A stretch of DNA of 49,585 nucleotides from Alphaproteobacteria bacterium (GTDB lineage: Bacteria; Pseudomonadota; Alphaproteobacteria; TMED109). The translations under genes and the position numbers were made by a program. Shown here piece after piece: positions 21,315 to 29,519 of the stretch. Position 1 is the stretch's first letter; every line of letters starts with the position of its first letter. The notes under the pieces are model-generated. The model had not been told where the DNA came from. It saw only the letters and a program-made list of their open reading frames with translations, and made no database searches. The stretch is from assembly GCA_022825235.1 (NCBI GenBank), contig JAJDYI010000079.1, positions 1 through 49,585 of the forward strand, written 5' to 3'.

Positions 21315-21520
21315 ACGGGCGGGCGGTTTTCCTGACGCCGAATTCGCTCCGGATCGGAGCCGTCACGGGCCGGACGGCACCAAATTGACCCGCCTGCGGG
21401 CCCGGCTACAGTCCATCTTGTCGCCGGCTCGCCGGACGGAGTCCGGGATCTGACCCGCGGTTCCCGTCGCCGCCCTCGGGCCCGGGCGGGCATTCCGGCG
21501 CCGCAACCGTGAGCTTTGCC

Positions 21521-22495
21521 ATGCAGGTGAACCGCAACCTCTTCGGGATCGCCGGGGCCGCGCTGCTGGCCCTCGCGGTCGCACTGCCCGCTGCCGACGC
21601 GGCCGGCAAGCGCATGGTCTTCGGCGGTGGGCCGGCCGGCGGCACGTTCCAGATCGTCGCCAACGCCATCCAGACCTACGGGCCGGTCAAGGAGGCCGAG
21701 GACTACACGGTCAAGGCGCAGTCGTCGGCGGGCTCCCTCGAAAACCTCCGCCGGATCAACCGCGGCAAGATGCAGTTCGGGGTGGTGTACTCGGGCCACG
21801 TGTACCTGGGCCGGGAAGGCCAGCTGAAGAATGACGACCGCACGTACGAGGACGTGCTTGCCGTCGCCTACCTGTACGGCGCGCCGGCCCAACTGATCGT
21901 CCGCCAGGGGTCGGGGATCAAGAGCGTGAAGGACCTCGTCGGCAAGAAGGTCGGGGTCGGGAATGCCGGCTCCGGCGCCTTCGCGAACTGCGAGCTCTTT
22001 TTCACCCACATGGGCGTCTGGGACGCGATCGAGCGGAACGCGATGGGCTACAACGACGCGGCGGCCGCGTTCGGCAACCGTCAGCTCGACGCATTCTGGC
22101 TGTTCACGGCCTTCCCGAGCGGGGCCGTGATCATGGCCGCCCAGACCTACGACATCGATCTCGTCGACCTGGCAGCTGACGCGGAGGGGACCGGCTTCTT
22201 CGAGCGGTACCCCTACTTCTCCAGTCTCGCCGTCCCCGCCGGTACCTACCGGGGCGTGGATTACGCGGCGCCCTCCTTCCAGGACTCGGCGCTGTGGGTC
22301 GCCAACGCGAACGTCCCGGACGACGTGGTCTACGACCTGCTCTCCAGGATCTACACCGATGCCGGGCTCGCGTACATGCGGAAGCAGAAGGAGACCTTCA
22401 AGGAAATGAGTGTGGAGGGCGCGCTCAAGGGGATCGTGACACCGTTGCATCCGGGCGCCGAGCGGTTCTGGCGGGAGCAGGGCCTGCTGCAGTGA
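21521..22495 (+). CDS. TAXI family TRAP transporter solute-binding protein
   Basis: Predicted 324 residues from ATG 21521 (a GTG at 21509 is possible). A signal peptide (LFGIAGAALLALAVALPAAD) leads into the TAXI signature KRMVFGGGPAGGTFQIVANA, followed by YTVKAQSSAGSLENLRRINR and LVGKKVGVGNAGSGAFANCE. It is a periplasmic receptor delivering organic acids, amino acids or similar ligands to a TRAP permease. A small membrane gene follows, but the matching fused permease lies 8 kb downstream, beyond the heme-copper cluster. Confidence 0.92.
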   Translation: MQVNRNLFGIAGAALLALAVALPAADAAGKRMVFGGGPAGGTFQIVANAIQTYGPVKEAEDYTVKAQSSAGSLENLRRINRGKMQFGVVYSGHVYLGREGQLKNDDRTYEDVLAVAYLYGAPAQLIVRQGSGIKSVKDLVGKKVGVGNAGSGAFANCELFFTHMGVWDAIERNAMGYNDAAAAFGNRQLDAFWLFTAFPSGAVIMAAQTYDIDLVDLAADAEGTGFFERYPYFSSLAVPAGTYRGVDYAAPSFQDSALWVANANVPDDVVYDLLSRIYTDAGLAYMRKQKETFKEMSVEGALKGIVTPLHPGAERFWREQGLLQ

Positions 22496-22802: not shown

Positions 22803-22979
22803 ATGACAGATACAGGTCAAGACGCTGGTTCGCCGGAGCAACCGGTCGAGCGCGTGCCCTTCATGCAGCGCTTGCTGGACAACCCGTTCCTGCTGCTCTT
22901 CCTGGGTGTCGCCGTGCCAGCGGTTCTCTATCTCATGTGGGGCCTCATGGAGGTAGCCCAGATTCCCATCGCGCAATAA
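22803..22979 (+). CDS. Heme-copper oxidase small subunit (IIa/CbaD-like)
   Basis: Predicted 58 residues from ATG 22803, 15 bases before the subunit II gene. A soluble N-terminal tail is followed by one hydrophobic helix, NPFLLLFLGVAVPAVLYLMW. Single-helix subunits in this position are known in ba3-type (B-family) heme-copper enzymes, where they pack against subunit I. Assignment rests on position and topology because such peptides diverge strongly. Confidence 0.7.
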   Translation: MTDTGQDAGSPEQPVERVPFMQRLLDNPFLLLFLGVAVPAVLYLMWGLMEVAQIPIAQ

Positions 22980-22994
22980 TCCGGAGGCCCCGAC

Positions 22995-23540
22995 ATGGCC
23001 ATTCACCCGCCTGAAAAACGGATCTGGTGGAACGAGCCGCTCGAAAAATCGGAAATCACCTGGATCACGATCGCGTTTATCTGGGGCCTGGTGATGTTCT
23101 TCACCATGGTCTTCTGGCACTTCACCGGCGAACAGAACCTCTCGAACGAGGCCTACCGAATCCACCCCGAAACGTTCGCCGAGCGCACCGAGGCAATGGT
23201 GGACCAGTACACGGTGCGCGAGGAGGGGGAGACGGGCCTGCCCGTCGTGCGTCCGCCCCCGGGCAGCGACGTGTACATGCTCGCGCGCCTCTGGGAGTGG
23301 TGGCCGATCCTCGAGCTGGAGGAAGGGAAGGACTACCGCCTGCACCTCTCCTCGATGGACTGGCAGCACGGCTTCTCGCTGCAGCCGGAGAACATCAACA
23401 TCCAGATCCATCCCGGCTACGAGCTAGTGCTGACGCTGACGCCCGAGGGCGTCGGGGAGTACGGGGTCGTGTGCAACGAGTACTGCGGGATCGGCCACCA
23501 CCAGATGGTGGGCAAGATCCACGTGGTCGCCGCGGAATAG
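22995..23540 (+). CDS. Heme-copper oxidase subunit II with CuA site
   Basis: Predicted 181 residues. One N-terminal membrane helix (WITIAFIWGLVMFFTMVFWH) anchors a periplasmic cupredoxin domain. The binuclear CuA ligands are complete: His125 (DWQHGFSLQ), Cys160 and Cys164, His168 and Met171 (CNEYCGIGHHQM). The protein should therefore accept electrons from cytochrome c or a cupredoxin. It is short like ba3-type subunits and NorS proteins. It sits ten bases before subunit I. No cytochrome c gene is in the window. Confidence 0.9.
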   Translation: MAIHPPEKRIWWNEPLEKSEITWITIAFIWGLVMFFTMVFWHFTGEQNLSNEAYRIHPETFAERTEAMVDQYTVREEGETGLPVVRPPPGSDVYMLARLWEWWPILELEEGKDYRLHLSSMDWQHGFSLQPENINIQIHPGYELVLTLTPEGVGEYGVVCNEYCGIGHHQMVGKIHVVAAE

Positions 23541-23550
23541 GGAGCTAGTC

Positions 23551-25275
23551 ATGGCGAGCATCGCGCATACCGGTTCACTGCCGAGAGCTGCGGAATTCCG
23601 GACCTGTCCCGACACCGGCCTCAGGGTAGATCTTGCGGCCGAAAAGCTGATCCGGTGGAACGCGGTCGTGGCCGTCGTGTTCCTTGCCATCGGGGGCCTC
23701 TTCGGCCTGCTGGTGGCGCTGACGCGCTGGCCGGCGGTCCACCTGCTGCCCGCGGAGTGGTTCTACCTGGCCCTGACGGCGCACGGCGCCGACGTCCTGC
23801 TGTTCTGGGTCATCTTCTTCGAAATTGCCATCCTCTACTTCGCCTCCGCGATCCTGCTCAACTGCCGGCTCGCGACCCCCCGGATGGCGTGGCTCGGGTT
23901 CTGGCTGATGCTGGCCGGCGCCCTCCTCGCCAACGTGGCGGTCCTGCAGGGCGAATCGAGCGTCATGTTCACGTCCTACGTGCCCATGCAGGCGGCCCCC
24001 CACTTCTATCTCGGCCTGATCCTCTTTGCGGTCGGCGCCCTGGTGGCCGTGGCCGTGTTCTTCGGCACGCTGGTAATCGCGAAGGACGAGGGCACCTACG
24101 AGGGCTCGGTCCCGCTGGTCACGTTCGGCGCCATCGCCGCGGCGGTGATCGCGGTGTTCACGATCACCTCGGGCGCCATCATCCTCATTCCCACCTTCCT
24201 CTGGTCGATCGGCCTGATCAGCCACATCGACCCGGTGATGTACAAGGTCGTGTGGTGGGGCATGGGCCACTCCTCCCAACAGATCAACGTCTCGGCCCAC
24301 GTGGCCGTGTGGTACGCCATCGCCGCCATGGTGCTGGGAGCCAAGCCCCTGTCCGAGAAGGTGAGCCGCTTCGCCTTCCTCATGTACATCCTGTTCCTGC
24401 AGATCGCCGCCGCCCACCACCTCCTGGTGGAACCCGGCATCAGCTCGGAATGGAAGATCTTCAACACGAGCTACGCGCTCTACCTCGCGGTGCTCGGAAG
24501 CCTCATCCACGGCCTGAGCGTCCCCGGCGCCATCGAGGCGGCCCAGCGCCGGCGAGGCTATACCAAGGGCGTGTTCGAGTGGTTGCGGAAGGCCCCGTGG
24601 GGCAATCCCGCCTTCTCGGGGATGTTCCTGTCGCTCGTCATGTTCGGCTTCCTCGGCGGGATCTCGGGCGTGGTGCTGGGCTCGGAGCAGATCAACCTGC
24701 TCATGCACAACACCATGTACGTGCCCGGGCATTTCCACGGCACCGTGGTCGCGGGGACGACGCTCGCCTTCATGGCGATCACCTACCTCGTGGTGCCGCT
24801 GATCTTCCGCCGCGAGATCATGTTCAAGAAACTGGCGCAGTGGCAGCCGTACGTCTTCGGCCTCGGCGTCGGCGGGATCTCGCTCTTCATGATGGGAGCG
24901 GGCACGCTCGGCGTCAGCCGGCGCCACTGGGACATCACCTTCGCCGATGCGCCCGTGGCGTTTGACTACCCCGGCACGGCGTTCCTCATGATGGGGCTGA
25001 ACGGCGTGTTCGGCGTCCTCTCGGCCCTGGGCGGCCTGATGTACATCGTGGTCGTGGTCAGCTCGGTTTTCTTCGGAGAACGACGGACCGAGGAGAAGGC
25101 GAAGGCCGAACCCCTGCTGCCCCAGGGCGGCGCCGAGGCGGTGGCGAGCTACGGCAGCGAGGGCACGCTCAAGCTGCCGGGCACGATCACGCTCGTGGCG
25201 ATCTTCTTCGTGGCGTTCGTGCTCTACTACTTCGTCAACTGGAAGTTCCTCTCGGAGGTCTGGCCTTTGAGTTGA
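23551..25275 (+). CDS. Heme-copper subunit I lacking the active-site tyrosine; NorY-like
   Basis: Predicted 574 residues and at least 12 membrane helices. Histidine ligands are all present: low-spin heme His78 (LTAHGADVLLF) and His396, CuB ligands His240, His289 and His290, and high-spin heme His394 (VPGHFHGTVV). The helix VI motif reads GHSSQQINV, so residue 244, normally the Tyr crosslinked to His240 in GHPxVY, is Gln. Oxygen reductases need that Tyr for catalysis. Its loss is characteristic of nitric oxide reductases derived from this superfamily, such as NorY of ammonia oxidisers. Automatic annotation would probably say ba3-type cytochrome oxidase. I infer NO reduction; this is not proven. 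Confidence 0.85.
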   Translation: MASIAHTGSLPRAAEFRTCPDTGLRVDLAAEKLIRWNAVVAVVFLAIGGLFGLLVALTRWPAVHLLPAEWFYLALTAHGADVLLFWVIFFEIAILYFASAILLNCRLATPRMAWLGFWLMLAGALLANVAVLQGESSVMFTSYVPMQAAPHFYLGLILFAVGALVAVAVFFGTLVIAKDEGTYEGSVPLVTFGAIAAAVIAVFTITSGAIILIPTFLWSIGLISHIDPVMYKVVWWGMGHSSQQINVSAHVAVWYAIAAMVLGAKPLSEKVSRFAFLMYILFLQIAAAHHLLVEPGISSEWKIFNTSYALYLAVLGSLIHGLSVPGAIEAAQRRRGYTKGVFEWLRKAPWGNPAFSGMFLSLVMFGFLGGISGVVLGSEQINLLMHNTMYVPGHFHGTVVAGTTLAFMAITYLVVPLIFRREIMFKKLAQWQPYVFGLGVGGISLFMMGAGTLGVSRRHWDITFADAPVAFDYPGTAFLMMGLNGVFGVLSALGGLMYIVVVVSSVFFGERRTEEKAKAEPLLPQGGAEAVASYGSEGTLKLPGTITLVAIFFVAFVLYYFVNWKFLSEVWPLS

Positions 25276-25291: not shown

Positions 25292-26158
25292 ATGGCGGCA
25301 GACATCCGTGAGCTGTGCGGTGTCTTCAAGCTGCGGATCGGATTCGCGATTGCCCTGAGCGCCTTGGCGGGCCTGGCGGTGACGCCCGGTCCGTCCGTCC
25401 CGTTCTGGAACGCCGTGGCACTCGCCCTCGCCGTACTCCTCGGCGCCGCGAGCGCCGGCGCCTTCAACCAGTTCGCCGAGCGCGACCTCGACGCGCGCAT
25501 GGTCCGCACCCGTGACCGGCCCTTCGTCTCGGGCCGCTACACCGCTGGCCCGGCCTGGCTCGCGATCATCGCTGCGCTGCTGGTGGCGTCCGTGACGCTC
25601 GCCGCCTGGGCCACCAACCTGGTGGCCGCCGCCCACGTGTTCCTCGGCGCCTTCGTCTACGGGATCGTCTACACCGTGTGGCTCAAGCGCCGCACCTGGC
25701 TCAACATCGTGATCGGCGGCCTCTCCGGCAGCTTCGCGGTGCTGGCGGGCGCGGCCGCCGTCGATCCGACCCCCTCCGCCCTGCCGGTCTGCCTCGCCGT
25801 CGTGCTGTTCCTCTGGACGCCGCCGCACTTCTGGAGCCTGGCGATGGCGACGCGCGACGACTATGTCCGCGCCGGGGTCCCGATGCTGCCCGTCGTGATC
25901 GGCGATGCACGGGCGGCCAGGGTCATCCTGGTCCATACCGTCGCGCTCGTCGCTGCGTCCCTGCTGCCGTTCTTCTTCGGACTCGGCCTGGTCTATCTCG
26001 CGCTGGCGGTGATCGGCGGCTGGCTATTCTTGGAGAAGAGCATCGCGCTCGTGCGGGCGCCCGGGCCGGCAGCGGCGGAAGCGAACTTCAAGGCCTCCCT
26101 GCTGCAGCTCTCGTTGATCCTGGTCGGGGCCATGGCGGACGGATGGTTGCCCCTTTAG
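25292..26158 (+). CDS. ctaB: Protoheme IX farnesyltransferase-like UbiA protein
   Basis: Predicted 288 residues with about eight membrane helices. This UbiA prenyltransferase makes heme O from protoheme. The Mg-diphosphate motif is NQFAERDLDARMVRTRDRP, and the second signature is LFLWTPPHFWSLAMATRDDY. Length is normal. It begins 17 bases after subunit I, suggesting the enzyme may use heme O or heme A, or that the gene travels with the cluster. Its 3' end overlaps the SCO gene by 16 bases. Confidence 0.9.
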   Translation: MAADIRELCGVFKLRIGFAIALSALAGLAVTPGPSVPFWNAVALALAVLLGAASAGAFNQFAERDLDARMVRTRDRPFVSGRYTAGPAWLAIIAALLVASVTLAAWATNLVAAAHVFLGAFVYGIVYTVWLKRRTWLNIVIGGLSGSFAVLAGAAAVDPTPSALPVCLAVVLFLWTPPHFWSLAMATRDDYVRAGVPMLPVVIGDARAARVILVHTVALVAASLLPFFFGLGLVYLALAVIGGWLFLEKSIALVRAPGPAAAEANFKASLLQLSLILVGAMADGWLPL

Positions 26159-26970
26159 GGCGGGTTGGCGCGTGGGCCCTCGCGGCGCTTTGCCTGCTCC
26201 CGGCCCTGCCGGGACTGGCGGCGGCCCCGGCCACGACCGGCTTCGATCCTGACCAGGCGCTCGCGGACAGCCAGGCGGCCCTGGGACGGACCCTCACGGG
26301 CTACGAATTCCGCGATTCGTCATTGCGACGGGTCACGCTCTCCGAGTTTCGCGGCCGCCCGCTGCTGATCAACCTGGTCTACACCAGCTGCGCCTTCGGC
26401 TGCCCGCTCGTCATCGAGACGCTGGCGGACGCCGTCGACGTCGCGCGCGACGCGGTCGGCCGGGAGAGTTTCCAGGTGCTGACCGTGGGCTTCGACACGC
26501 GGATGGACACGCCCGAGCGGATGCGGGAATTCGCCGCGAACCACGGGATCCGCGACGACGGCTGGCGGTTCGCCAGCGCCGATGCCGAGACCATCGCCCG
26601 GCTGTCGAAGGAGCTGGGCTTCCTGTTCTTCCCGTCGCCGAAGGGCTTCGACCATCTCACCCAGACGACGGTCGTCGACGCGGACGGCGTCGTCTACCGC
26701 CAGGTGTACGGGGCGATGTTCGATCCGCCGTTCCTGGTGGAGCCGTTGAAGGACCTGGTCTTCGGGCGCCGGAGCATGCCGACGTCATACGAGGGGCTGA
26801 TCAACCGCATCCGCCTGTTCTGCACGATCTACGACCCGTGGAGCGGCCGCTACCGGTTCGATTACTCCCCCTTCATCGGCATCGCCGTCGGCGCCGCCTT
26901 GCTCGGCACCCTGGGCTTCTTCGTCGCCCGCGGCTGGCTCCGGCATCGCCGCCCGCGCACGCGGACCTGA
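26143..26970 (+). CDS. SCO1/SenC family copper chaperone
   Basis: Predicted 275 residues from ATG 26143, overlapping ctaB. A signal sequence or anchor precedes a thioredoxin-fold domain with the copper motif Cys83-x3-Cys87 (YTSCAFGCPL) and His171 (GFDHLTQTTVVDADG). SCO proteins deliver copper to CuA of subunit II, which is present in this cluster. A second hydrophobic helix near the C-terminus (FIGIAVGAALLGTLGFFVAR) anchors the domain from the other end, which is longer than usual. NorSY clusters of ammonia oxidisers also carry a senC gene. Confidence 0.9.
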   Translation: MVAPLGRVGAWALAALCLLPALPGLAAAPATTGFDPDQALADSQAALGRTLTGYEFRDSSLRRVTLSEFRGRPLLINLVYTSCAFGCPLVIETLADAVDVARDAVGRESFQVLTVGFDTRMDTPERMREFAANHGIRDDGWRFASADAETIARLSKELGFLFFPSPKGFDHLTQTTVVDADGVVYRQVYGAMFDPPFLVEPLKDLVFGRRSMPTSYEGLINRIRLFCTIYDPWSGRYRFDYSPFIGIAVGAALLGTLGFFVARGWLRHRRPRTRT

Positions 26971-26987: not shown

Positions 26988-28577
26988 GTGACGGCGCTCC
27001 AACGCGTCCTGCGGCCGGCATTCTGGCGCCTCGACTCCTGGGCGTCGGGGGTGTTCGGGGCCGCCTGGAACCCCCTCTACAACCTCGGCGCGCTGGGCTT
27101 CTTCTGCTACTGGATCGTCGCGGTCAGCGGGATCTACGTCTACGTCTTCTTCGATACCGGCGTCACCGAAGCCTACGACTCCGTCGCCTACATGACGGAG
27201 GACCAGTGGTACCTCGCCGGCGTGATGCGGAGCCTGCACCGGTACGCCGGGGACGCCCTGGTCGTGGTCATGGTGGTGCATCTCGTTCGCGAGTTCGCCT
27301 ATGACCGATTTCGCGGCGCACGCTGGTTCAGCTGGCTCACCGGCGTCCCGATCATCCTGCTGGTCCTCGCATCCGGCATCACCGGCTACTGGCTGGTGTG
27401 GGACCAGCTCGCGCAGTACGTCGCCATCACCACCACGGAGTGGCTCGACTGGTTGCCGATCTTCGGCGAGCCCATCGCCCGCAATTTCCTCGCGCCCGAC
27501 GCGCTCGATGACCGGTTCTTCACTCTGCTCGTGTTCCTGCACATCGCCGTGCCGCTGCTGTTGCTGCTGGCGCTGTGGCTGCACCTGCAACGCGTGAGCC
27601 GGCCGCGCATCAACCCGCCGCGCGGCCTGGCGGCGGCCAGCTTCGCGGCGCTGCTCGCCCTGTCGCTCGTCGTGCCGGCGACGAGTCATGCGCCGGCCGA
27701 TCTCGCGAAGGTGCCGACGGTCCTCGACCTCGACTGGTTCTACCTCGGGTTCTACCCCCTGCTGGACCTCTGGTCCCACGGCACGGTGTGGGCCACGGCG
27801 GCAGTGCTGACGTTCACGATTGCTGCCATGCCGTGGCTGCCGCCGTTTCGCCGTCCCGCGGTCGCGCGGGTCGATCTCGACAACTGCAACGGCTGTGCCC
27901 GCTGTGCCGAGGACTGCCCGTTCAACGCGATCTCGATGGAGCGCCGCACCGACGGCAAGCCGTTCGACCGGGAGGCGGTCGTGAAGGGCTCACTCTGCGT
28001 GAGCTGCGGCATCTGCGCGGGGTCCTGCCCGACGGCGACCCCCTTCCGCCGCGCCGGCGCTCTCGTCCCGGGGATCGAGCTGCCTGACGCCACGCTGGTG
28101 GCCTTGCGGGACCGGCTCGACCGCATGGCGGATGCGGACGGCCAGCAGGTCTACGTCATCGCCTGTGAGCACGGGGTGAGGCCGGAGACGCTCCGGCGCC
28201 CGGGCCTCGCCGTGGCCGAGCTGCCCTGCGTCGGCGCCCTGCCCCCCTCGTTCATCGACTACCTCCTGGGCCGCTGCGGCGCCGCCGGCGTCTACCTGGC
28301 CGGTTGCGCCGAGGGAAACTGTCACTTCCGTCTTGGCGACACGTGGACCGACGCCCGCCTGGACCGCCGGCGGGACCCGGGCCTCCGCAAACGGGTGCCA
28401 CGTGAACGCGTGCGCTGCGACGGGTTCGAGGCGCACCAGTCGTCCAGGCTGCAGCAGTCCGTCGAGACCTTCCTCGACGATGTCCGCAAGCTGCCGCCGC
28501 AGGAGGTTCCCTCCGCCCGGCAGCTCGGCGCGCGCCTGGGACGCGCACGCGAGACTGGAGGCGTCCGCAGCCCATGA
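26988..28577 (+). CDS. Cytochrome b - 2[4Fe-4S] ferredoxin - FlpD triple fusion
   Basis: Predicted 529 residues from GTG 26988. Residues 1-285 are a cytochrome b/b6-type membrane domain with His84/His98 and His185/His199 as diheme ligands. Residues 295-350 carry two ferredoxin clusters, CNGCARCAEDCP (300-310) and CVSCGICAGSCP (337-347). Residues 388-480 resemble FlpD/MvhD, the hydrogenase-type iron-sulfur subunit, with VYVIACEHG, LPCVGALPPSFID and GVYLAGCAEGNCHFRLG. There is no Rieske or cytochrome c1 nearby. The chain suggests electron transfer between a soluble donor or acceptor and the quinone pool. It overlaps the next gene by four bases. Confidence 0.8.
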   Translation: MTALQRVLRPAFWRLDSWASGVFGAAWNPLYNLGALGFFCYWIVAVSGIYVYVFFDTGVTEAYDSVAYMTEDQWYLAGVMRSLHRYAGDALVVVMVVHLVREFAYDRFRGARWFSWLTGVPIILLVLASGITGYWLVWDQLAQYVAITTTEWLDWLPIFGEPIARNFLAPDALDDRFFTLLVFLHIAVPLLLLLALWLHLQRVSRPRINPPRGLAAASFAALLALSLVVPATSHAPADLAKVPTVLDLDWFYLGFYPLLDLWSHGTVWATAAVLTFTIAAMPWLPPFRRPAVARVDLDNCNGCARCAEDCPFNAISMERRTDGKPFDREAVVKGSLCVSCGICAGSCPTATPFRRAGALVPGIELPDATLVALRDRLDRMADADGQQVYVIACEHGVRPETLRRPGLAVAELPCVGALPPSFIDYLLGRCGAAGVYLAGCAEGNCHFRLGDTWTDARLDRRRDPGLRKRVPRERVRCDGFEAHQSSRLQQSVETFLDDVRKLPPQEVPSARQLGARLGRARETGGVRSP

Positions 28578-29074
28578 CCAGGGTGCTCCGCTACGCGGGC
28601 CAGGCCGCCGTGCTCGCCGCCTTTGTCGCGGCGGTCGGGTTCTTTTCGGGCAATCCATCGTTCCGCCATTTCCCCGAGGGGGAGGCCCTCCTCAAGGTGA
28701 GCTTCACGCACGGCGGGGACCGGAAGGTCGAATGCCGGAAACGGACGCGCGAGGAACTTGCCGAACTGGCGGCCAACATGCGGAGCGCAATGGACTGCCC
28801 GCGCGAACGGGTGGAGCTGCGCTTCGAGATCGACCTCGACGGGGTGCCGCTCTACCAGGCGCTGCTGCCGCCGACGGGGCTGGCCGGGGACGGCCCGTCT
28901 CGCATCTACGAACGGTTTGCCCTCCCCGCCGGCCGTCACGTCCTCGATCTCCGCCTGCGCGATTCCCGGCGGAGCGAAGGTTTCGATCATGTCGCCCGGA
29001 AGGCCGTCGAGTTTGCCGCCGGGCAAAGCGTGGCCGTCGATTTCCGCGGCGGCGACGGATTCATCATCCGATGA
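28574..29074 (+). CDS. Membrane-anchored conserved protein of the cluster
   Basis: Predicted 166 residues. ATG 28574 overlaps the stop of the fusion gene. An N-terminal helix (AGQAAVLAAFVAAVGFFSG) anchors a beta-rich periplasmic domain with two cysteines (KVECRKRTREELAEL and RSAMDCPRERVELRFE). The later ALLPPTGLAGDGPSRIYERF and LPAGRHVLDLRLRD resemble a carbohydrate-binding or immunoglobulin-like sheet. I know no function. Coupling to the cytochrome b fusion suggests an assembly or structural partner. Confidence 0.65.
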   Translation: MTRVLRYAGQAAVLAAFVAAVGFFSGNPSFRHFPEGEALLKVSFTHGGDRKVECRKRTREELAELAANMRSAMDCPRERVELRFEIDLDGVPLYQALLPPTGLAGDGPSRIYERFALPAGRHVLDLRLRDSRRSEGFDHVARKAVEFAAGQSVAVDFRGGDGFIIR

Positions 29075-29111
29075 CCGGCTATGTGCACGGGACAGTCCCG
29101 GGGAGGACGTC

Positions 29112-29519
29112 ATGGCGCTGATCGCCTGGCGCAAGGCCTTCGAAATCGGGATCGAGGCGGTCGATCACGAGCACCGCGAGCTGATCGAGCTCATCAACGA
29201 GCTCCATGAGGGGCTCGGGCGTGGCGCCAAGCGCGAGACGGTGGCCGAATTTCTCGGTGAGATCCACGCCCGCATCTCCGCGCATTTCGCCCTCGAGGAA
29301 CGCGTGATGCGCGAGCTGGAATACGACGAGTACGCGGACCACAAGGAAGACCACGAGACTCTGCTGGACGACATCAGGGACATCATGGACGCGTTCGAGG
29401 AAGGCAGCTATGCCGAGTTCGAGGCGGAACTGGGTGAGCAGCTGGAAACGTGGTTCGGCGGGCACTTCCGCACGAAGGATGCCCGCCTGCACACCTTCCT
29501 CCATGACCGGGGCTTGTGA
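29112..29519 (+). CDS. Bacteriohemerythrin
   Basis: Predicted 135 residues from ATG 29112 behind GGGAGG. The diiron ligand set is complete: His21 (VDHEHREL), His58 and Glu62 (HFALEERVM), His77 and His81 (DHKEDHETL), His118 and Asp123 (WFGGHFRTKDARL). Bacteriohemerythrins reversibly bind O2, and some bind NO or supply O2 to membrane enzymes. It is 37 bases downstream of the cluster and probably in the same transcript. That places a diatomic-gas carrier beside a gas-reducing enzyme. Confidence 0.9.
   Translation: MALIAWRKAFEIGIEAVDHEHRELIELINELHEGLGRGAKRETVAEFLGEIHARISAHFALEERVMRELEYDEYADHKEDHETLLDDIRDIMDAFEEGSYAEFEAELGEQLETWFGGHFRTKDARLHTFLHDRGL

Follow-up and report, generated by a model that had tools for sequence, protein, structure and literature searches.

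The window analysed here is a stretch of 49,585 nucleotides (contig JAJDYI010000079.1, positions 1 to 49,585 of the forward strand, assembly GCA_022825235.1) from an alphaproteobacterium of the TMED109 lineage. It carries a cassette of eight genes (Table 1), in which the CuA-binding subunit II and the catalytic subunit I of a heme-copper enzyme are encoded one after the other. The original prediction had proposed this enzyme, from its sequence, as a candidate nitric oxide (NO) reductase. That proposal is supported here because three lines of evidence, namely the active-site residue, the phylogeny and the gene context, point to it, and the locus very likely encodes a NO reductase of the eNOR family.

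Table 1. Genes of the eight-gene cassette, with positions in the window (aa, amino acids; ORF, open reading frame; loci, the 80 related loci kept for comparison).
Feature	Position	Strand	Basis
Small subunit, 58 aa, one hydrophobic stretch	22803..22979	+	ATG ORF, first gene of the operon
Subunit II, CuA-binding (H125, C160, E162, C164, H168, M171)	22995..23540	+	phmmer to T. thermophilus ba3 subunit II, E 3.3e-16
Subunit I, catalytic, 574 aa, six His ligands, Gln244	23551..25275	+	ATG ORF, PF00115 E 1e-66
CtaB/CyoE heme O synthase	25292..26158	+	TIGR01473 256.7 bits, over cut-off; in 64/80 loci
SCO1/SenC copper chaperone	26143..26970	+	ATG at 26143; PF02630 45.9 bits (26146-26970); in 77/80 loci
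Cytochrome b - 2x[4Fe-4S] - FlpD/MvhD fusion protein	26988..28577	+	GTG start at 26988; PF00033, Fer4 families, PF02662
Conserved 166-aa protein, hydrophobic N-terminus	28574..29074	+	ORF; in 66/80 loci
Hemerythrin-like (HHE) protein	29112..29519	+	ATG at 29112; PF01814 48.7 bits (29085-29519); in 64/80 loci

To collect relatives, named genomes of bacteria and archaea were scanned by alignment, and at least 562 relatives were returned. The best 80 loci were kept, and together with five other relatives and the window they make up the set of 86 aligned rows used below. The eight-gene cassette is conserved. Among loci whose contig extends to the gene concerned, the small subunit (77/77), subunit II (77/77), SCO (73/73), the fusion protein (65/65) and the 166-aa protein (65/65) are present throughout, the hemerythrin in 62 of 63 and CtaB in 63 of 76. 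Defluviimonas sp. SAOS-178_SWC (L020), Bradyrhizobium sp. AUGA SZCCT0283 (L100) and Pseudaminobacter arsenicus CB3 (L104) are among the carriers and are in culture. The gene for the 58-aa small subunit, present at 77 of the 80 loci and on the opposite strand in one of them (L057), gave zero matches in Pfam and NCBIfam searches, and the Pfam search with the 166-aa protein was also without match. Subunit I aligns by phmmer to the ba3 subunit I of Thermus thermophilus at E ~1e-45. None of the NCBIfam models was over its cut-off for subunit I or subunit II, the matches to the latter all falling below it, and subunit II had no Pfam match. Upstream of the operon, at 21509-22495, lies a periplasmic receptor gene (Pfam NMT1_3), which is shared by the loci L028 and L029 and was not found in L030 or the other loci compared.

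Alignment to the T. thermophilus ba3 oxidase placed H78, H240, H289, H290, H394 and H396 of subunit I at ba3 H72, H233, H282, H283, H384 and H386. In the same alignment Gln244, encoded by CAG at 24280-24282, occupies the position of ba3 Tyr237, four residues past the first CuB histidine. It can be seen from the 86 rows that, first, Gln243, Gln244, Asn246 and Tyr279 are invariant (86/86). Secondly, five of the six ligand histidines are likewise found in every row, while H396 is His in 84 and Lys in two Thermus rows. Thirdly, the CuA ligands of subunit II are kept in all 86 aligned members, save that E162 is Glu in 84 and Asp in two. The six histidines, the Gln in the place of Tyr and the full CuA set, all of them claimed in the original prediction, are confirmed in the subunits encoded in the window. 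Gln also stands at the site in 29/29 further relatives from a draw of 398 genomes of the phylum. Because it is found in all these members, Gln244 is a genuine family trait that is explained neither by chance nor by an error of sequencing. In the 16 ba3-like rows the site is occupied by Tyr and position 279 by Phe or Leu, and the A-type rows have Tyr and Ala, respectively.

The enzyme therefore has the six histidines and CuA ligands of the B-family oxygen reductases and lacks their Tyr. Compared with T. thermophilus ba3 it shares the fold and these ligands and keeps ba3 Y248, S261 and S309, whereas ba3 Tyr237 is replaced by Gln, Y244 by Val, T312 by His, and Phe by Tyr279. The AlphaFold2 (AF2) model of subunit I (predicted TM-score, pTM, 0.82) had ba3 oxidases as its top PDB matches, with a TM of 0.77 to 1xme by query length; it is poor (predicted local distance difference test, pLDDT, <50) at residues 376-379 and 384-393, beside the heme-ligand loop. 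In the T. thermophilus plasmid relatives L021:11983-13662 and L022:11983-13665 the motif reads HFK instead of HFH, with Lys replacing the low-spin heme ligand H396, which suggests a putative His/Lys low-spin heme in these two proteins.

A maximum-likelihood tree was built from 49 rows: the window, L008, L020-L023, 14 loci from the set of 80, 8 from the 29 of the phylum draw, the 16 ba3-like rows, 4 A-type rows and L009. To limit its size the remaining loci were kept outside; further copies from the same genus, the A-type or fragment rows L010, L011, L013 and L016, and L161 (28% identity, Phe at the site, other ligands misaligned) were not included either. The 28 eNOR-like rows form one clade with support 100/99, apart from the Tyr-bearing rows, and the 16 ba3-like rows cluster at 90/91; the tree program flagged long branches. 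The rows comprise none labelled eNOR in its record and no identified sNOR sequence, and the tie to published eNOR is made through the Gln criterion of PMC8756737 and the isolate BS150m-G9 of PMC8879329, as far as the accessible parts of these papers go. L161 (G169:C6:708214-709512) is itself a distant heme-copper subunit I, reading GHVLQF with Phe in the place of Tyr, from a 1.9-Mb alphaproteobacterial genome.

Placement within the canonical B-type oxygen reductases, with a Tyr supplied from another helix, had been named in the original prediction as an outcome that would speak against a NO reductase. The tree places the protein outside the Tyr-bearing B-type rows, but the invariant Tyr279 lies near the site in sequence, so that this point is settled only in part. 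The protein might still be an oxygen reductase whose missing Tyr is supplied elsewhere, for example by Tyr279 on the helix bearing His289/290, as in the C-type cbb3 oxidases. The distribution of Tyr279, present in every eNOR-like row and replaced in the ba3-like ones, would fit such a role, as would the fold and top PDB matches. However, the Tyr that forms the crosslink in cbb3 sits 6 residues ahead of its His, whereas Tyr279 is 10 residues ahead of His289; the cbb3 Tyr is thereby about one helical turn nearer CuB. Tyr279 is also matched by a Tyr in L009, and the genomic context described below is one of nitrite reduction to NO. Moreover, NO reductase activity has been reported for the family in citing papers (accessible parts of PMC8879329 and PMC11388526). 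An oxygen reductase is therefore very improbable. L009 itself (L009:1383-3108, genome G043) is a heme-copper subunit I of aberrant sequence, preceded by a match to subunit II; its CuB site reads HNVHY, Tyr stands by alignment at both the Gln244 and the 279 positions, and Tyr is also aligned at H289 and H394. NirK was over the cut-off in G043.

According to Table A4 of PMC8756737, in the part accessible, the residue at the Tyr site is Gln in eNOR, Asn in sNOR and Glu in cNOR and qNOR. With cNOR and qNOR the enzyme would share the predicted reaction, 2 NO to N2O (nitrous oxide), and differs from them in having Gln244 for Glu; the separate qNOR of its own genome reads HLWVEGVFE there. A closer comparison is that with the sNOR (NorSY) of ammonia oxidisers, which combines a CuA subunit with a Tyr-less subunit I and has SenC nearby, as in norSY-senC-orf1 (PMC4940428, accessible part). 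The likeness to norS-norY-senC noted in the original prediction holds in so far as subunit II, subunit I and SenC lie near one another. It fails in that CtaB (25292-26158) intervenes to give the order II-I-CtaB-SCO, and in that the family is eNOR and not sNOR. Membership in sNOR was rejected because of Gln, not Asn, in 86/86 rows and because of the CtaB gene between subunit I and SCO, and we regard it as the least probable of the readings considered.

In contrast, no difference was found between the catalytic subunits of the window and those of eNOR (ba3-a1), with which they share Gln at the Tyr site, a CuA subunit II directly upstream and the B-family fold and ligands (PMC8756737, PMC8879329). 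The enzyme itself thus belongs to an already known family. In 2019 a Tyr-less alphaproteobacterial ba3-a1 with SCO in its operon was described and its oxidase function questioned (PMC6431628). The ba3-a1 subtype has since been named eNOR on reported NO reductase activity (PMC8879329); eNOR is counted among the biochemically characterised NO reductases (PMC11388526) and is employed as a family in the surveys PMC10734462 and PMC10359470, all as given in the accessible parts of these sources. For isolate BS150m-G9, in which cd1 nitrite reductase is present, ba3-a1 would serve as the NO reductase (PMC8879329, same part); the record of this isolate (L034) has a protein 79% identical to ours. Naming of such genes as oxidases had been foreseen, and plasmid relatives are indeed annotated as 'cbb3-type' or 'b(o/a)3-type' cytochrome c oxidase subunit I.

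The gene context of the relatives points to nitrite reduction. In the flanks of the 80 loci NirS was found at 350 bits or more in 12, any of NirS, NirN, NirF and NirDL at E<=1e-8 in 21, and NirK in one (L091). A relative 46% identical lies 3.6 kb from nirS in T. thermophilus TF24 and is followed by an Rrf2 regulator, and in T. thermophilus HB5018 Rrf2 and DUF542 genes come after it. In G028 (75% identical) nirS and genes for heme d1 are upstream of eNOR on the same contig. The genes between nirS and eNOR include, as named by reading the sequence, a multiheme one like NapC, a cupredoxin and one like CtaA. In the same interval L116:10098-11819 encodes 573 aa which by sequence reading have an N-terminal NapC/NirT-like multiheme part and C-terminal ethylbenzene dehydrogenase-like heme domains.

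Whole genomes were then considered for 49 carriers, those of L031-L079 (L028-L030, L080 and L081-L107 were left out). Genes of the cd1 family (E<=1e-60), which here means NirS, NirN and NirF together, not split genome by genome, were present in 48 of the 49, and NirK in 4. Seven carriers also had a detectable cNOR or qNOR, all seven with cd1. In the other 42 neither was detected with the qNOR of our own genome as query, a search that reached two cNOR-like matches at 28-31% and that a more divergent cNOR could escape. Among 53 non-carrying relatives cd1 at E<=1e-60 was found in none, and NirK over the cut-off in two.

The own genome contains NirK (486 bits), adjoined by a gene of about 765 aa that is a qNOR by sequence (PF00115 181 bits, no NCBIfam match). 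In this region (L117, G000:C68:36000-54000) nirK, a formylglycine-enzyme-like gene, which we take to be nirV-like, and the qNOR gene lie together. No NosZ was over the cut-off in the own genome, the sole match (33 bits) being the CuA domain of subunit II itself, and N2O is therefore the likely end product there.

Several observations weigh against reading the enzyme as the NO reductase of a denitrification chain. L009, which by alignment has Tyr at the site, comes out as the sister of the eNOR-like clade (99/95), and its branch is very long. The contrast in cd1 content is inflated, many of the 53 non-carriers being small genomes, and the carriers are mostly metagenome-assembled genomes drawn from the best 80 of at least 562 relatives. 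The enzyme is present, at 96-99% identity, in each of the six genomes of the same genus that were searched, but the genus is without a strong cd1 match and has NirK instead, over the cut-off in five of the six and as two fragments on two contigs in the sixth. Since the own genome encodes the qNOR, besides an aa3 oxidase with CtaA, the enzyme is not its sole NO reductase. Finally, NO reduction is a predicted activity for this protein and its close relatives, drawn from what citing papers report for the family.

A related possibility concerns the role and overlaps with the identification as eNOR: the enzyme may be a NO reductase that serves in NO detoxification and not in respiration. That a qNOR adjoins nirK in this organism and that a hemerythrin is the last gene of the cassette would suit such a role. 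Against it stand the 42 of 49 related genomes in which cNOR and qNOR were undetected, and the CuA input and conserved channel-like residues, which fit an energy-conserving enzyme. Detoxification thus seems rather unlikely as the main role, and a respiratory eNOR is preferred.

A less expected finding concerns the fusion protein of the cassette. Its domains PF00033, Fer4 families and PF02662 were found in 20/20 aligned members; four His and eleven Cys are kept in 69/69 full-length members, of which 67 also have a twelfth Cys. The AF2 model (pTM 0.71) resembles the cytochrome b of bc1 and MvhD. In domains and predicted folds the protein is thus like the bc1/b6-type cytochrome b (cytochrome b6/bc1) and MvhD/FlpD (5odc_D), and differs from them in that all three parts are in a single chain.

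In the draw of 398 phylum genomes, the fusion was present in 30 of 31 eNOR carriers versus 4 of 367 other genomes. Fisher values take no account of relatedness and do not count here as evidence. Subunit I of eNOR was matched in 36 genomes. Thirty of these, the own genome included, were counted as carriers at 51% identity or more, and the 31st (G332) has a fragment 84 aa long at 69%; the five others, matched at 27-32%, have Tyr (four) or Phe (one) at the site and were not counted. The only carrier without the fusion (G174), whose contig ends just past SCO, was scored as a miss. The four genomes with the fusion and no eNOR (G226, G242, G250 and G383) were scored as they are; they belong to genera where other genomes have both, and three of them are 69-82% complete while G250 is in about 730 contigs. 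The fusion may follow either eNOR or the type of nirS cluster. Paired nearby matches to the fusion gene were seen in G241, G306, G332 and G383, and also in G471 (L173:4554-8619), where the second match is partial and a weak heme-copper subunit I match (25%) adjoins.

In 13 of the 30 carriers the fusion is on a different contig from eNOR (part of the assemblies being fragmented), and G171 has both on one contig about 19 kb apart. In the three genomes inspected (G171, G178 and G151) the fusion and the 166-aa gene lie beside nirS. The fusion thus appears to accompany the system and to be more than a mere neighbour. A search of the 12 kb around the Thermus and Thermomicrobium relatives did not find it, and among the plasmids of the collection the only full-length match was on one from Defluviimonas; the fusion is therefore not part of eNOR everywhere.

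The pairing of fusion and eNOR was not found described in the open-licence literature, a body that does not include the main eNOR paper. The primary eNOR biochemistry is reportedly that of Murali et al., PNAS 2024, a result known here from citing papers. The accessible text of PMC8756737, PMC8879329 and PMC6431628 does not mention the fusion, 166-aa or hemerythrin genes with published eNOR. In Table A3 of PMC8756737 a protein from Chloroflexi that combines cytochrome b6, Fe-S and FlpD domains appears under the ORFs bearing a C1 cytochrome domain, and not as an eNOR partner. Our best guess is that the fusion is an electron-transfer partner. More tentatively, proteobacterial eNOR could be part of a conserved denitrification module in which the fusion and the 166-aa protein act as a dedicated partner, linking the periplasmic NirS/eNOR chain by electron transfer to the quinone pool or to a donor in the cytoplasm and possibly bypassing the bc1 complex; we hold this as a working idea that is not the likelier outcome.

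By analogy with ba3 and cNOR, CuA would accept electrons from cytochrome c and the heme/CuB site would reduce two NO. In the enzyme of the window electrons, probably from cytochrome c, would enter at CuA of subunit II. From there they would reach the low-spin heme (H78, H396) and then the binuclear centre (high-spin heme H394; CuB H240, H289 and H290), where two NO would be converted to N2O with Gln244 replacing the oxygen-splitting Tyr. That Tyr gives an electron and a proton for O2 splitting, and NO coupling needs neither. For eNOR a single, K-like proton channel is predicted, and here a K-channel-like set (Y255, S268, S317 and H320, the last for ba3 T312) may carry protons from the cytoplasm. 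Such uptake is plausible because the channel residues are conserved (Y255, S317 and H320 in 86/86 and S268 in 84/86 rows, with Glu20 of subunit II in 85/86 and one gap), and with cytoplasmic protons the reaction may conserve energy. CtaB would make the heme, the type of which is likewise a prediction, and SCO would load CuA. In its own organism the enzyme would act after NirK, alongside qNOR, in a truncated denitrification ending at N2O.

What may be new here is the conserved cassette with a possibly unrecognised partner. N2O is a greenhouse gas, and with oxidase names in public records the ability of uncultured Alpha- and Gammaproteobacteria to form N2O can easily be overlooked: 41 of the 48 cd1-carrying genomes would score as being without cNOR or qNOR. 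Being tightly paired with eNOR, the fusion gene provides a simple marker by which the enzyme may be recognised in genomes of the phylum, and a testable electron-transfer partner.

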